Shown in pieces: positions 17,833-24,504 of a DNA stretch of 64,000 nucleotides (the stretch's first letter is position 1; each line of letters opens with the position of its first letter). The position numbers and the translations under genes are program-made. The notes under the pieces are model-generated. The model was not told where the DNA came from. It searched no databases and saw only the letters and a program-made list of their open reading frames with translations. Source of the DNA: an uncultured Cytophagales bacterium. Lineage in GTDB: Bacteria > Bacteroidota > Bacteroidia > Cytophagales > Thermonemataceae. Location of the stretch: contig CALLAC010000001.1 of assembly GCA_938002655.1 (NCBI GenBank), positions 124,001 through 188,000 of the forward strand, in the 5' to 3' direction.

Positions 17833-18621
17833 ATGAAAGAAATGCCATTCAAAGAAGTAAAAAATCGAATGAAGCCTGTTTCCAGCATTTTGGTTACTCA
17901 GCCTCAGCCCACAGACCCCCGATCTCCATATTTTGAGCTTGCTAAAAAATACAATTTGAAGATAGATTTTCGCTCTTTTATTGAAGTACAAAGGATTGAT
18001 ATGAAAGATTTTCGTAAGCAGAAAATCAATCCTTTGGAGTTTACGGCAGTTATTTTTACTAGTCGCAATGCAGTAGATCATTTCTTTAGCATTTGTAAAG
18101 AGCTAAAAATAGAAATGCCTCCCGAAATGAAATATTTTTGCATTTCAGAGCAAACAGCCAATTATTTACAGAAATACATTGTAGTACGCAAAAGAAAAAT
18201 CTTCACTGGTATCAAAACTGCTGAAGATTTGCTTCCTGCTATCAAAAAAAATAAAGACGAAAAGTTTTTATATCCTTGCTCTGATATTAGAAAAGACGAA
18301 CTGCCCACTTTGCTTGAAAAAAATGGCATCAATTTCACTGAATGCGTAATGTATCATACAGTAGCGGCAGACCTTTCGGATTTGGCTGATGTAAAATACG
18401 ATATTTTGGTATTCTACAGCCCTTCGGGAATTGCTTCACTTTTCAGTAATTTTCCTGACTTTGTGCAAGGAAATACACGCATTGCCGCCTTCGGCCCTAC
18501 TACTGCTAAGGCTGTGAAAGATGCAGGCTTAATATTAGACATTGAAGCTCCTTTACCCAATGCACCTTCAATGACGGGGGCATTAGAAGCCTACATCAGA
18601 CTTGCCAATAAGGTAAAATAA
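17833..18621 (+). CDS. hemD: Uroporphyrinogen-III synthase
   Basis: A 262-residue enzyme that closes hydroxymethylbilane to uroporphyrinogen III in haem synthesis. The family is poorly conserved, but several marks are visible: SSILVTQPQP at the start, FTAVIFTSRNAVDHFF (the IFTS-NAV block), FLYPCSDIRKDELPTLL, and near the C-terminus YDILVFYSPSGIASLF and AAFGPTTAKAVKDAG. It follows the DUF4271 gene by 99 bases on the same strand. Start chosen at MKEMPFKEVKNRMKPV as the first in-frame ATG. Confidence 0.9.
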   Translation: MKEMPFKEVKNRMKPVSSILVTQPQPTDPRSPYFELAKKYNLKIDFRSFIEVQRIDMKDFRKQKINPLEFTAVIFTSRNAVDHFFSICKELKIEMPPEMKYFCISEQTANYLQKYIVVRKRKIFTGIKTAEDLLPAIKKNKDEKFLYPCSDIRKDELPTLLEKNGINFTECVMYHTVAADLSDLADVKYDILVFYSPSGIASLFSNFPDFVQGNTRIAAFGPTTAKAVKDAGLILDIEAPLPNAPSMTGALEAYIRLANKVK

Positions 18622-18638
18622 AAAATGTTAGAAAAAAA

Positions 18639-18674
18639 TTTGCATTTTATTTTTGATTTTACATAAATTGCAAA
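18639..18674. repeat. Inverted repeat between hemD and porP
   Basis: The 12-base arms TTTGCATTTTAT (18639-18650) and ATAAATTGCAAA (18663-18674) pair with one mismatch around a 12-base loop, 27 bases before the porP start. Without a T run it is a poor terminator. It may be an operator or a leader hairpin. Confidence 0.45.
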
Positions 18675-18700
18675 ATAAAATTCTAAATCACAAATAATAG

Positions 18701-19699
18701 ATGAAAAAAGAATTTACATACGCTCTATTTTTACAATTTGCTCTGTTGGTAGTAGTACGCCTGGGATATGCTCAGCAAGATGCCCAATTCAGTCAATATA
18801 TGTTCAATCCATTTTATTACAACCCTGCCGTAGCAGGTGCTGATGGAAAGACAAATTTTTTCTTGACGCACAGAACACAATGGCTCGGATATTCAGCTTC
18901 TTTTGATGATGGAGGCTCTCCACAAACGCAGATGTTCAGTGCAATGTCTCCTTTTGTTTTCATACCTAATACGGGCATAGGTTTGCATGTAATAAGAGAT
19001 GTGAGAGGTCCACTTACTAGTTTAGAAGCTCAGTTTTCTGCCAATTATTATTTTAGCCTCTTTGAAGATAAAGGTAAACTTTCGGTAGGAGTGAGAGGAG
19101 GAGTATATAGCCAAACTGTTGATGGTAATAAGTTCCGTTTTGTAGATGCTAACGATGCTATTGCCCAATACTGGATTGGTAGAAGAGAAACAGCTCTTAA
19201 ACCTGATTTGGCTTTTGGGCTTTGGTACAATCAAGAAGATTTTTACGTAGGGCTTGCAGGCAATCACCTTTTAGGTTCACGAATTAGTTTCGGTTTAGAT
19301 AACCTGATAGATAACGCTCTTGCCCGCAATTTATATGTGACAGGCGGATACAATTATCCGTTTGATGACCAATGGCTGATTCAGCCTTCGGTAATGATTA
19401 AAACTATTCCCGAAGCTACACTTAAAACCACCTCTATTGAAGTTTCGGTGCTAGGTACTTACAATCAAAAATTCTGGGGAGGGCTTTCTTTCCGTCAATC
19501 CGATGCTCTGATTGCTATGATTGGAATGTATCCTCTGAAAGATAATAGTATGAGGATAGGATATGCCTTTGATTATACTATTTCAGGTAGGCAAGGTAAA
19601 GCTCCTACTTCACACGAAGTGTTTTTGAATTATGGTTTGGTGTGGAAAAGATATGGAAAACCTACCCCCGAAACCCCAAGACACGGAACAAGGTACTAA
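18701..19699 (+). CDS. PorP/SprF family type IX secretion system membrane protein
   Basis: A 332-residue outer-membrane protein with signal peptide (residues 1-24, ending GYAQQ). The conserved opening DAQFSQYMFNPFYYNPAVAGA and HRTQWLGY define the PorP/SprF family. Position directly before gldKLMN supports the T9SS role, matching the porP-porK-L-M-N order known from Porphyromonas gingivalis. These proteins partner with the translocon or with specific surface substrates such as SprB. The C-terminus extends past the usual final strand by a short polar tail (PTPETPRHGTRY). Confidence 0.93.
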   Translation: MKKEFTYALFLQFALLVVVRLGYAQQDAQFSQYMFNPFYYNPAVAGADGKTNFFLTHRTQWLGYSASFDDGGSPQTQMFSAMSPFVFIPNTGIGLHVIRDVRGPLTSLEAQFSANYYFSLFEDKGKLSVGVRGGVYSQTVDGNKFRFVDANDAIAQYWIGRRETALKPDLAFGLWYNQEDFYVGLAGNHLLGSRISFGLDNLIDNALARNLYVTGGYNYPFDDQWLIQPSVMIKTIPEATLKTTSIEVSVLGTYNQKFWGGLSFRQSDALIAMIGMYPLKDNSMRIGYAFDYTISGRQGKAPTSHEVFLNYGLVWKRYGKPTPETPRHGTRY

Positions 19700-19716
19700 C
19701 ATAATGTAAAAAAATT

Positions 19717-19730
19717 GTAAAATTTTTTAC
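19717..19730. promoter_or_regulatory. Short inverted repeat shared with the porV promoter
   Basis: GTAAAATTTTTTAC: 6-base arms GTAAAA and TTTTAC around two T. It lies just upstream of the gldK palindrome. The identical 14-mer is at 37187-37200 before porV, with a one-base-spacer form at 37157-37169. Shared regulation of T9SS genes is inferred. Confidence 0.4.
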
Positions 19731-19750
19731 TTGATATTACGTAATATCAA
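19731..19750. promoter_or_regulatory. Perfect 20-bp palindrome, candidate operator of gldKLMN
   Basis: TTGATATTAC at 19731-19740 is followed directly by its reverse complement GTAATATCAA at 19741-19750. The centre falls on the expected -33 position for the -7 box at 19760-19767. A dimeric regulator bound here would cover the sigma-factor contact. No regulator gene lies next to it. Confidence 0.6.
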
Positions 19751-19759
19751 AATTAGCAT

Positions 19760-19767
19760 TATATTTG
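19760..19767 (+). promoter_or_regulatory. -7 promoter box of gldK
   Basis: TATATTTG matches the Bacteroidota -7 consensus TAnnTTTG, 37 bases before the gldK ATG. The base group at the usual -33 distance is TTAC, inside the palindrome, not TTTG. So the promoter may need an activator or be controlled through the palindrome. Confidence 0.6.
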
Positions 19768-19804
19768 CACTGAAAACTCTCAAAATTTAAAAAGCAAAGG
19801 TGTT

Positions 19805-21028
19805 ATGAATAACTTAAATTTCTGCAAGGTTTGGCTAACCTCGCTCATGATAGGAAGTGTGTTTCTGCAAGCTTGTGGCTTGCTTGGAGGTGGCAAAAAA
19901 AACATAATGAAAAGCAAAGATCTCAACGACCGCATCATCAAATCCAAAGGCGAAATATATCGTTTTGATGTTGTAAGACCCGGCTGGGACCAGTATGTAC
20001 CTCAGAGTATGGTCGTTATTCCTGCGGGTACTTTCCACATGGGGCAAGCTGATGAAGATGTACCCCATACACAAATCAACTACAACAAGCAAATTACAAT
20101 TAGTGCCTTCTTTATGGATGAAACGGAGGTTACTAACAACCAATATCGCCTCTTTACAGAAGTAATGACTGCCTATGCATATAAAGGTGCTAATGAGAGA
20201 GTGCAGTTAGACCCTGACTATGAACTCAACGTAATGAGGTGGGTGAGCTTAAACTACGATCAATCTAAAAATAATGCTATGGATACTAACTTCTTGAATA
20301 AAATTCTCCCCGATACGCTTCGTTGGTCTAATGAATATGCTCATCACATGGGCGACCCTATGATGGAGTATTATTTTATGCACCCTGCTTTTGATGATTA
20401 CCCTGTGGTAGGCGTAAAATGGACAGCGGCTCAGACCTTCTGTGTGTGGCGTACAATGCATCTAGAATTTCATAGAGCTCAACAAGGATTACCTACAAAT
20501 CCGCGTTTTCGATTGCCTACCGAAGCAGAGTGGGAATATGCCGCAAGAGGTGGCAGAAATCTTGCCAAATACCCTTGGGGCAACCCTTATGTGCGTAATA
20601 CATTAGGTTGTATGCTTGCCAATTTCAAGCCAGGTAGAGGTAACTACTATGACGATGGTTTTGCTTACACGGCTCCGGTAGCTTCGTATTTTGCTAACGA
20701 CTGGGGGCTATACGATATGGCAGGAAACGTTGCTGAATGGTGCCAAGATGCTTACTATGAAGCCTCTGTACCTATCGTTTGGGATATGAACCCCGTTTTT
20801 GACCCCCAAGTCAAAAAAGGTGATGCCAACAGTATTGGATATAGTAATCTGAGTGCCTATCCTCGTCGTGTAGTAAGAGGTGGTTCTTGGAAAGATATTG
20901 CCTATTATCTTGAAACAGGTACACGTACCTACCAACATTTTGACTCAACTTCTACCTCCATTGGTTTCCGTTGTGCAATGACTTATCTTGGTCGTTCCTC
21001 TGGCAACGAAATCAAAAGAGTACGATAA
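19805..21028 (+). CDS. gldK: GldK/PorK, T9SS ring lipoprotein
   Basis: A 407-residue lipoprotein (lipobox LQAC, Cys24) with a formylglycine-generating-enzyme-like fold: MVVIPAGTFHMGQADED, FFMDETEVTNNQYRLF, FRLPTEAEWEYAARGG and GSWKD...GFRCAM. In the T9SS, GldK/PorK forms a large ring with GldN/PorN attached to the outer membrane from the periplasmic side; it is not known to act as an enzyme. First gene of gldKLMN, behind its own promoter and palindrome. Confidence 0.97.
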   Translation: MNNLNFCKVWLTSLMIGSVFLQACGLLGGGKKNIMKSKDLNDRIIKSKGEIYRFDVVRPGWDQYVPQSMVVIPAGTFHMGQADEDVPHTQINYNKQITISAFFMDETEVTNNQYRLFTEVMTAYAYKGANERVQLDPDYELNVMRWVSLNYDQSKNNAMDTNFLNKILPDTLRWSNEYAHHMGDPMMEYYFMHPAFDDYPVVGVKWTAAQTFCVWRTMHLEFHRAQQGLPTNPRFRLPTEAEWEYAARGGRNLAKYPWGNPYVRNTLGCMLANFKPGRGNYYDDGFAYTAPVASYFANDWGLYDMAGNVAEWCQDAYYEASVPIVWDMNPVFDPQVKKGDANSIGYSNLSAYPRRVVRGGSWKDIAYYLETGTRTYQHFDSTSTSIGFRCAMTYLGRSSGNEIKRVR

Positions 21029-21084: not shown

Positions 21085-21891
21085 ATGGCTTACAAAGTTC
21101 TTAGTGCAAAAGAAAAATTTTATACCTACGTTGTTCCTAAAATTGTAGGTGTGGGTGCTTCTATTGTTATTTTGGGTGCATTGTTCAAACTGATGCACTG
21201 GCCTGGTGCTGCTTTTATGCTGATTGCTGGCTTGGGTACTGAAGCTGTGATTTTTTTCTTGTATGCATTTATGCCCATTGAACCACCTAAAACTGACCCC
21301 GATTGGGATAAAATGATACAATCTTTGGCTGGTTTAGGAGGAGGAGCTCAAAAAGATGAAAAAGTAGTTGCCAAACTTGCCGCTCTTGAAGCTCAAATAG
21401 CCAATACTATTACCCCTGATGCTGTTAATAATTTTGGTAACGGTATGAAACAACTCTCTGATAGCGTAAGTAAAATGACTGCTATTGGTGATGCTTCTGT
21501 TGCCACTGCTGAATATGCTAAAAATGTAAAATTAGCTACGAATACGCTCACTGAAATGAATAAAAATTTGGCCGCTTCGATAGGAGCAGTAGGTGAACTT
21601 ACCAAGGCATCTACTGATGCGAAAGCCTACCATCAACAAATTCAAACCCTTACTAAAACTCTAAGCTCTTTGAATGCCGCCTATGAAATGGAACTACAAG
21701 ATAGTAAAAAGTTCAGTGAGGCTTTGAGTAAATATTATGGAGGTATGACTAAACTCATCGAGGGAGTAGTAGAGACTGCCAAAGATGCAGAAGGATTAAA
21801 AGTACAACTATCAAGTCTAACTTCTAATCTTACTGCTCTCAATAAAGTGTATGGAGCTATGCTTACTGCTATGAAAGGAGCACAGGCCTAA
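21085..21891 (+). CDS. gldL: GldL/PorL, T9SS motor membrane protein
   Basis: A 268-residue inner-membrane protein with two N-terminal helices (about 20-36 and 42-62). With GldM it forms the proton-driven rotary motor of the T9SS. Lys35 (GALFKLMHWPG) and Glu53 (GLGTEAVIFF) align with the functionally important Lys27 and Glu49 of Flavobacterium johnsoniae GldL; the loop between is shorter here. The long cytoplasmic C-terminal part is helical and rich in Ser, Thr, Ala and Lys, likely coiled coil. It lies 56 bases after gldK. Confidence 0.96.
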   Translation: MAYKVLSAKEKFYTYVVPKIVGVGASIVILGALFKLMHWPGAAFMLIAGLGTEAVIFFLYAFMPIEPPKTDPDWDKMIQSLAGLGGGAQKDEKVVAKLAALEAQIANTITPDAVNNFGNGMKQLSDSVSKMTAIGDASVATAEYAKNVKLATNTLTEMNKNLAASIGAVGELTKASTDAKAYHQQIQTLTKTLSSLNAAYEMELQDSKKFSEALSKYYGGMTKLIEGVVETAKDAEGLKVQLSSLTSNLTALNKVYGAMLTAMKGAQA

Positions 21892-21999: not shown

Positions 22000-23580
22000 A
22001 TGGCAGGACCTAAAGAAAGCCCAAGGCAACAGATGATTAACCTGATGTACTTGGTACTTACCGCCTTACTTGCTTTACAGGTGAGTTCATCAATTATTGA
22101 TAAATTTCTGTATATCAAACGCTCATTAGACGCTAGTGCCGAAGATACCGAAGCTGATATTGTCGAGTACATTAAAGGCTTCAAAGAAGATGCGGAAAAA
22201 GAGAAAATGACAGAAACCGAAGAATACAAAAAGAAACTTGCCGCTATTGAGCAAGTGAGAAGTATGACTAAAACGAAACTTGAGATTTTGAGTAAAATAG
22301 AGAATGATATCATAGATAAAGCAGGAGGTGGACGCGACGAGAACGGTAAAATTAAAAACGCCGGTGGTGGTGAAACACAAATTGAAGAATTGATGCTCGG
22401 ACCTGCTAATAGCAAATCTGGTGAAGGATACAGACTGCAAAGAGAAATGAATTTGTATGCCCAAGAGCTTGGTAAGATAGTAGCTGGTTTCAAAAAAGAT
22501 ATTAAACCAGAAGTTGCTTTCCCTGCTTTATGTTTGGATAATAAAGATAGAAAAGACCTTGTAAAGCTAAAAGGTAACGAAGAAGAAATTAATAAAGACT
22601 ATGCTCAGGCTAGTTTCCAAGCTACTCCTGTTGCAGCGGCTTTGGCTGTGCTTGCTCATTTGCGTACCGAAGTAAAGCGTTATGAAGATAATGCTATCAA
22701 AATCATTGGTGCGAAAGTAATTCCTCCTACTCCTGACGTATTTTCTGCACAAATTGCTTTGGAATCTGCTGTGGTTGCACAAGGGCAAAAAATTAAAGGT
22801 AAAATGTTTATTATTGCCTCAAGCTCAAAGTTGGATATGCAACCTAAATTTGAAGTTACAGGACTTAAAGAAGTAAAAGGTGGTGTAGCAGAAATAGAAT
22901 TTACTCCTTCAGGAAATGGAGTTATCAAAGGTAAAGTAACAGCTATTCTCAATGGTAAAGAAACCGTGCTTGAAACAGAACCCGTTGAGTATAAAGTTGC
23001 CAAGCCCAATATCATAGTAGATAATCCACAAGCTCGTCCTGTTGTTTATGAAGAATGTTATCATAAATTTAACGTATCTTGTCCTGAAATTGGTGCTTCA
23101 TTTGCTCCTAACTTTTCAGCAACCAATGCACAAATAGTAGAACGTTCTTCTAACTCTGTTGCATTTATTCCTAGTAAAGGAGCAAAAACAGTAGACCTAA
23201 CCGTACAAGGGAACGGCTTGAAAGATGTTAAGCAATTTAATGTTCGTAAAGTACCTTCCCCTGAACCTGTGATGGTTATCGGAGGAGTAGAAGTGCCTGC
23301 AGAAAAGGGAGTGAAAGCCAGGATTCCATTTACTTTTAAAATCAGACCAAATGAAGAGTTTGCCAGTATTTTGCCTAATGAAGCTCGTTATGAGTATCAA
23401 ATTAATAGGATAAAACTTGTAAAAGGTACACAAGAACTTGCTGGTGATATCAATTCACTTGCATCAAAATCAGAACCAGGAACTCGTTATGAAGTATCAT
23501 TATCAGTTTACAGAATAAATTCAAGAGGGCAACGTGTACTTGCTACCGTGAAAGATCCCGTGATTATTCCTGTAAGATAA
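22000..23580 (+). CDS. gldM: GldM/PorM, T9SS motor and periplasmic shaft
   Basis: A 526-residue protein anchored by one N-terminal helix (about 14-32, MINLMYLVLTALLALQVSSS) with a short cytoplasmic start MAGPKESPRQQ, strongly conserved in GldM. The periplasmic part begins helical and continues in beta-rich domains (D2-D4), which transmit motor rotation to the GldK/GldN ring. Length is typical. It follows gldL after a hairpin-bearing gap and precedes gldN by 21 bases. Confidence 0.97.
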   Translation: MAGPKESPRQQMINLMYLVLTALLALQVSSSIIDKFLYIKRSLDASAEDTEADIVEYIKGFKEDAEKEKMTETEEYKKKLAAIEQVRSMTKTKLEILSKIENDIIDKAGGGRDENGKIKNAGGGETQIEELMLGPANSKSGEGYRLQREMNLYAQELGKIVAGFKKDIKPEVAFPALCLDNKDRKDLVKLKGNEEEINKDYAQASFQATPVAAALAVLAHLRTEVKRYEDNAIKIIGAKVIPPTPDVFSAQIALESAVVAQGQKIKGKMFIIASSSKLDMQPKFEVTGLKEVKGGVAEIEFTPSGNGVIKGKVTAILNGKETVLETEPVEYKVAKPNIIVDNPQARPVVYEECYHKFNVSCPEIGASFAPNFSATNAQIVERSSNSVAFIPSKGAKTVDLTVQGNGLKDVKQFNVRKVPSPEPVMVIGGVEVPAEKGVKARIPFTFKIRPNEEFASILPNEARYEYQINRIKLVKGTQELAGDINSLASKSEPGTRYEVSLSVYRINSRGQRVLATVKDPVIIPVR

Positions 23581-23601: not shown

Positions 23602-24504
23602 ATGAAAAAGTGTGTGTATGTGCTAATAGCTTTGTATTTTACTACAAATCTTGTAGTTGCCCAATTTGGATACAACCCTAATGTAGTAAATCCTATCTTG
23701 GAAGATGATATCATGTTCAGAAAGATAGTCATCAGAAAACTGAATTTCAAGGAAAAGCAAAATAGAGGCTTTGCTCCTGATATAGATGACTATAACTTCT
23801 TGTATCAACTGTATTTGGCTATCTCTGGTGAAGCAGAAGTAAAGCCTATAGGTTTGTCTATTACGCCTTACTCAACAGGTCTTAATATACTTTCTTTGGG
23901 TAGGGTATCTGAAGAAAAAAAGATTAAATTGCCTGCCGCTGACCTCCAAAGAATTAAAGAGGAGTATAAAAACAATTTTGACGATGCGAACCAAAAGTAT
24001 GGGAAAGAAGTTGACCCGAGCGTTTTTGGCTGCATAGAGTCTATTACAGACCCACAATCAGGGGTTACTGTAAATGCTCTTCAACCTTATGGAAGAGAAA
24101 ATATTGCATCTCTTGAAATTGTAGAGGAAGTAGTTTTTGATAAAAGACGCTCTCGAATGTATATCAATATTATCGCTTTTCATTTGCTTGCAGTGTGTCC
24201 TGATGGCGAAAAATCTATTGCAGTTGTAAAGTATAAGGAAGTGGATAGGTATTTTAGGGCTTTGTATCAGGAGTCTAACCAGCGGCTTGGCAGATGGTAT
24301 AATCCTAAAAATGAACGTAGACATATGTGTATCATGGATGCTTTTGAGCTACGTTTATTTTCATCAAGAATTAAACAAATTTCCAACCCTGAAAATAAGG
24401 AACTTTCGGAGATCGTCAATAACAACATCATTGAAGAACTCTACAAAGCTCAGGAGGCAGAAATGGAGTTGATGGAATTTGAGCATAATTTGTGGGAGTT
24501 TTAA
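23602..24504 (+). CDS. gldN: GldN/PorN, T9SS ring protein
   Basis: A 300-residue periplasmic protein with a signal peptide (about 1-20, ending VVAQF). It has the GldN core: NPILEDDIMFRKIVIRKLNFKEKQN, the mid-domain IVEEVVFDKRRSRMYI and the C-terminal IMDAFELRLFSSRIKQ. GldN binds GldK to make the outer-membrane-linked ring and contacts the GldM shaft. It is the last gene of the operon, followed by a GC-rich hairpin. Confidence 0.96.
   Translation: MKKCVYVLIALYFTTNLVVAQFGYNPNVVNPILEDDIMFRKIVIRKLNFKEKQNRGFAPDIDDYNFLYQLYLAISGEAEVKPIGLSITPYSTGLNILSLGRVSEEKKIKLPAADLQRIKEEYKNNFDDANQKYGKEVDPSVFGCIESITDPQSGVTVNALQPYGRENIASLEIVEEVVFDKRRSRMYINIIAFHLLAVCPDGEKSIAVVKYKEVDRYFRALYQESNQRLGRWYNPKNERRHMCIMDAFELRLFSSRIKQISNPENKELSEIVNNNIIEELYKAQEAEMELMEFEHNLWEF

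Follow-up and report, generated by a model that had tools for sequence, protein, structure and literature searches.

A genus-level palindrome over the gldKLMN promoter of Raineya as a candidate operator

Work on promoters of T9SS genes exists for P. gingivalis: PorX footprints are described in porT and sigP (PMC8050853, PMC8265659), a SigP cascade acts on T9SS genes (PMC4800418), and a palindromic motif found in a subset of por promoters is proposed, in a single sentence, to be a regulator box (PMC5005315), all as given in the accessible parts of these papers. Outside Porphyromonas, transcriptional control of the T9SS or gliding motor is little explored in searchable papers. A first-pass annotation of the DNA studied here was aware of no defined operator for gldKLMN, and our literature searches agree, as they turned up neither an operator nor a transcription start that has been mapped for these genes; the parts of PMC11320123 and PMC5879114 that were covered likewise describe no gldKLMN operator. 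Here we describe a dyad upstream of gldK in a bacterium that appears to belong to the genus Raineya.

The palindrome and the gldK promoter

The window (the whole 64,000-nucleotide stretch that was analysed) lies in contig C1 of a genome of 2.64 Mb in 44 contigs (G000). On its forward strand are gldK, for the PorK/GldK lipoprotein (19805–21028; TIGR03525, 406.7 bits against a cut-off of 350), gldL (21085–21891; TIGR03513), gldM (22000–23580; TIGR03517) and gldN (23602–24504; TIGR03523). The NCBIfam models match above cut-off. Within this one operon, DNA identity to R. orbicola is 79–85% for gldK, gldL and gldM and 65% for gldN. A porP/sprF-family gene on the same strand (18701–19699; TIGR03519) ends immediately upstream of the gldK intergenic region, and upstream of porP, 17833–18621 probably encodes a uroporphyrinogen-III synthase, with NCBIfam matches far below the cut-offs.

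Upstream of gldK, TTGATATTACGTAATATCAA forms an exact 20-bp palindrome at 19731–19750 (no strand assigned), with TTGATATTAC and GTAATATCAA as its two halves. It can be divided into a left arm TTGATATT (19731–19738, forward strand), a 4-nt centre (19739–19742, forward strand) and a right arm AATATCAA, the inverted copy of the left arm (19743–19750, reverse strand). Nine bases (19751–19759) separate it from TATATTTG at 19760–19767 on the forward strand, 37 bp before the gldK ATG, which matches the housekeeping −7 box consensus TAnnTTTG quoted in the accessible part of PMC6847099. According to the F. johnsoniae convention in the same source, where the −7 box extends from T−12 to G−5, transcription is predicted to start at 19772 on the forward strand, 4 nt after the box. 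Counted from this predicted +1, the palindrome would span −41 to −22 with its centre at −31.5, and the gldK leader would be 33 nt long. The dyad symmetry overlaps the gldK promoter, as is expected of an operator. The first-pass annotation had thus described the perfect palindrome, its 9-base distance from a consensus −7 box and its place over the −33 region correctly. Upstream of the palindrome is a 26-bp A/T-rich block (19703–19728, no strand assigned) with a weak inverted repeat AAAAAATT/AATTTTTT; it is invariant in three congeners and might serve as an upstream element of the promoter, or else belong to a weak hairpin at the 3' end of porP.

How unusual is this arrangement? We examined 464 kb of the same genome, made up of the window and 20 stretches of 20 kb, in which 144 TAnnTTTG sites stand upstream of ORFs. 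Of all 144, the one at gldK has the longest arms (10); the next three have arms of 8, mostly A/T runs. The sample contains three perfect palindromes of at least 20 bp, all intergenic, where a first-order model expects 0.47 for the intergenic part and 0.001 per 105-bp region. Such a palindrome at one named promoter is unlikely by chance; yet chance alone should produce a few in each genome, and the site was chosen post hoc. The absence of the usual TTTG had also been pointed out, and neither TTTG nor TTG occurs 17–23 bp upstream of the gldK −7 box. This is not unusual, however: at gaps of 17–23 (with a peak at 18–20), TTTG was found in just 38 of the 144 sites and TTG in 60, leaving 84 without even TTG. 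Since so few sites have TTTG and the −33 motif is also weak in F. johnsoniae promoters (accessible part of PMC6847099), its absence carries little weight and is not diagnostic.

Conservation of the dyad and its surroundings

We compared four genomes of the genus: G000, R. orbicola (G001), G002 and G003. Both arms, TTGATATT-N4-AATATCAA, are kept in three of them, our own included. These three align without gaps over the 105-bp intergenic region, the G003 contig stopping shortly past the gldK start, and differ in nine of the 105 columns (19701, 19702, 19729, 19741, 19742, 19769, 19770, 19788 and 19794). All 16 arm positions are invariant and two of the four centre positions vary (ACGT here, ACGC in R. 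orbicola, ACAC in G003), as does 19729, two bases before the left arm. Because the arms are identical in three genomes and the 4-bp centre differs, the conserved unit is of the form 8-4-8. By simple counting, there is a probability of 0.03 that the two positions which vary within the 20 bp would both fall in the centre. In the same three genomes 177 of 332 third codon positions of porP vary, a rate at which 16 unchanged neutral positions would have a probability of 5e-6; by this measure the constraint is strong. At the flanking intergenic rate the same outcome in three genomes has P = 0.25, which is not significant; conservation is as high over all 105 bp, so that no constraint specific to the arms is evident. 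The region is 94% identical to that of R. orbicola, the highest of 11 intergenic regions in 13 kb; the others reach 23–90%, and the third positions of gldK 64%. Once the centre is altered, the 8-bp dyad that is left stands out only slightly for its composition, being matched by a fraction of 0.061 of shuffles in R. orbicola and 0.016 in G003, and this weighs against an operator.

The fourth congener, G002, whose gldK is 83% identical, lacks this palindrome. At nearly the same place it has another dyad, TGCTAATTTTTT-TG-AAAAAATTAGCA, with 12-bp arms, and none of 1000 shuffles was as good. Its left arm aligns with that of the others (TTGCTAAT against TTGATATT), but the partner arms do not, and its half-site spacing differs by 8 bp, a change that one dimer would hardly tolerate and that counts against an operator. 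In other genera, we found no significant dyad at this place upstream of gldK in G004, G005, G006, G007 (which probably corresponds to Thermonema rossianum), G021 or G037. The regions inspected comprised 30 loci and 32 of the 80 in a second set, some organisms being common to both; for the more distant ones start codons were assigned by a script, perhaps wrongly. The alignment with close relatives that had been suggested as a check is thus divided: the palindrome precedes gldK in three of four congeners and is missing from the fourth and from all other gldK upstream regions inspected.

What other genera do keep is the stretch just downstream, TTAGCATTATATTTG (19753–19767, forward strand), which ends in the −7 box and recurs as TTAGYATnATnTTTG upstream of gldK in Raineya, Thermonema and Microscillaceae-type genomes. 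On sequence comparison, this core element is more widely conserved than the palindrome. It scored at least 13 of 15 in 17 of 19 aligned regions and 12 in the other two, although the scored sequences are the very ones from which the consensus was derived by eye, so that it is not independent of them, and the rows for the three Raineya genomes are almost copies of one another; 2 of 18 more distant regions also reached 13. An exact search with TTWGYATNRTRTTTG gave 1–6 matches per genome and 30 in total in 10 genomes. The gldK site is the only intergenic exact match in G000, G001, G006 and G007, and is absent from the exact matches in G002, G004, G005, G021 and G052; in other genomes exact matches precede unrelated exported proteins. 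A T9SS regulon sharing the core element was considered and rejected: in our own genome looser matches outside ORFs precede unrelated genes, among them ArsR-like, tetratricopeptide-like and transporter-like ones (names read from translations).

Searches for further sites and alternative readings

The full palindrome, its 16-bp core and the arm pattern were searched for with up to three mismatches. At this threshold over 20 bp there is no second copy in the genome and no further copy in the window, and 100 shuffles gave no match. Near-match loci from three genomes fell inside ORFs in 22 of 26 cases and were intergenic in four; for G000 these loci include 14 of the 17 further places from one search and just 4 of the 95 from another. 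Matches to the arm pattern outnumbered those to a reversed-pattern control (96:26 in G000, 124:28 in G001, 115:34 in G003), but this apparent sign of a regulon disappeared against 150 shuffled-arm palindromes. The 464-kb sample holds 13 coding and 6 intergenic near-matches to the arms, counts that 41 and 38 of the 150 shuffled-arm controls also reached. Across the order, exact arms occur in 14 of 390 genomes, at one site each: three are the Raineya gldK sites, and of the other 11, eight are inside ORFs and three intergenic, none before gldK. One of them, in a distant member (L266 of G101, near 1501), lies within a longer inverted repeat (~38 bp) between two genes. The genome-wide search once put forward as a check therefore returned a single site with no near-match excess over shuffled-arm palindromes. 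We reject an operator with many targets, since no further site was found at other promoters or at a regulator's own gene. A scan of 10 neighbouring ORFs, part of the neighbourhood, revealed no DNA-binding regulator among them; a histidine kinase is present. It would be unusual for a regulator to have one site and not to control its own gene by way of this motif, which also counts against an operator.

On balance, the most likely reading is a genus-level, single-site candidate operator over a conserved, dedicated promoter. We put at roughly 45% the chance that, in part of Raineya, a dimeric DNA-binding regulator serving only the gldKLMN promoter binds at the palindrome. In favour of this are the longest arms of the 144 sites, the invariant arms around a varying centre, the comparison with porP third positions, the highest intergenic identity to R. 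orbicola in the 13 kb and the strong dyad with other letters at nearly the same place in G002. The dyad placed on the promoter is real, and its pattern of conservation fits an operator without proving one. The operator proposed at first for a dimeric regulator of the T9SS motor is thus supported in part: the arms identical in three of four genomes, the varying centre and the overlap with the promoter speak for it, and the equally conserved flanks, the lack of a second site in the genome and the undiagnostic absence of TTTG speak against it.

The strongest competitor, possible though rather doubtful, is that the symmetry is incidental to a strongly selected promoter with its upstream A/T-rich element, the arms being kept for polymerase contacts or bending. 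The even conservation of the 105-bp region suits it, as do the other genera that keep the core without a dyad, the AT-rich motifs that F. johnsoniae promoters have at −18 and −28, which are stronger than any −33 motif (accessible part of PMC6847099), and the frequency of palindromes: three in 464 kb would mean about 17 of at least 20 bp in a whole genome, provided that the sample is representative. It does not account well for a gldK dyad that is the best of 144 promoter-like sites, or for the dyad of different letters at nearly the same place in G002.

A further reading goes beyond the operator itself. If the core were a promoter dedicated to the motor operon and kept across genera almost only at gldK, and the Raineya dyad its operator, with the letters rewritten between congeners and the symmetry kept, then a motor-specific regulator may have co-evolved with its single site; we regard this as unlikely.

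A hairpin in RNA reading through from porP, acting in 3' end formation, processing or attenuation, would have an 8-bp stem and a variable tetraloop, and is a little less likely still. The stem is indeed fixed and the variable part is the loop, G002 retains a hairpin with other letters, and the 72-base stretch leading up to the −7 box is predicted to fold with z = −2.7 in our genome, −2.4 in G003, −2.0 in G002 and −1.6 in G001. But G037, which has no dyad, folds equally well (z = −2.3), no compensatory change is seen among the three genomes, and the stem is almost all A-U (−4.1 kcal/mol for the isolated hairpin), which is disfavoured because R. orbicola has its optimum near 50 °C (accessible part of PMC5982127). 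An intrinsic terminator of porP, with a G+C-containing stem and a T-run, is rejected: no T-run follows the dyad and there are no terminator-like sites in 18500–20000.

A PglZ-domain match, PglZ being the effector domain of PorX, lies at G000:C20:25962–26540 (L228) within a 526-aa open frame, which is a likely candidate for a PorX orthologue. That the core element matters rather than the palindrome, being used by a polymerase that is alternative or depends on an activator, as in the PorX/SigP cascade of P. gingivalis, is the least probable alternative: its high scores in 17 of 19 regions, the scarcity of TTWGYATNRTRTTTG, with gldK the sole intergenic match in four genomes, and this PglZ protein speak for it, but the consensus came from the same sequences that were scored, two distant regions reach 13 as well, looser matches precede unrelated genes with no T9SS regulon among them, and the published SigP motif differs, with rSigP not binding upstream of porK (accessible part of PMC4800418).

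Proposed action and comparison with known systems

For the operator, the recognised unit would be two inverted 8-bp half-sites TTGATATT with an unspecified 4-bp spacer. RNA polymerase makes its upstream promoter contacts in the stretch that the palindrome takes up, about −41 to −22, so the simplest action of a bound regulator would be occlusion of the polymerase, that is, repression; alternatively, an activator might compensate for the weak −33 region. The core promoter just downstream would be older and common to several genera. R. orbicola is described as non-motile in the accessible part of PMC5982127, and it retains gldKLMN nonetheless; since it is non-motile, the motor would serve secretion there, and its control would be one of secretion rather than gliding. 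The defined 8-4-8 site and the conserved core element make the control of the motor genes directly testable.

Fnr-type operators have the form TTGAT-N4-ATCAA. The outer letters TTGAT...ATCAA are alike here, but 10 bp rather than 4 lie between them, and a Fnr/Crp-type site is rejected. The motif of PMC5005315, as described in the accessible part, is likewise a palindrome proposed as a regulator box in T9SS promoters; it belongs to por promoters of P. gingivalis and not to gldK, and PorX showed no binding to the probes. With the PorX/SigP-controlled por promoters of P. gingivalis, the gldK site would have in common the control of T9SS genes, including porKLMN there, and it shares AT-rich sites upstream of the start (accessible parts of PMC8050853, PMC8265659 and PMC4800418); the PorX sites published there, of ~25 bp, are not palindromes of the gldK kind, and in porT one such site occupies −106 to −83. 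Compared with the Bacteroidota housekeeping promoter (−33 TTTG / −7 TAnnTTTG; accessible part of PMC6847099), the −7 box TATATTTG is the same and the predicted leader equals the F. johnsoniae average, whereas at the −33 spacing the palindrome takes the place of TTTG or TTG and the −7 box has a conserved TTAGC ahead of it.
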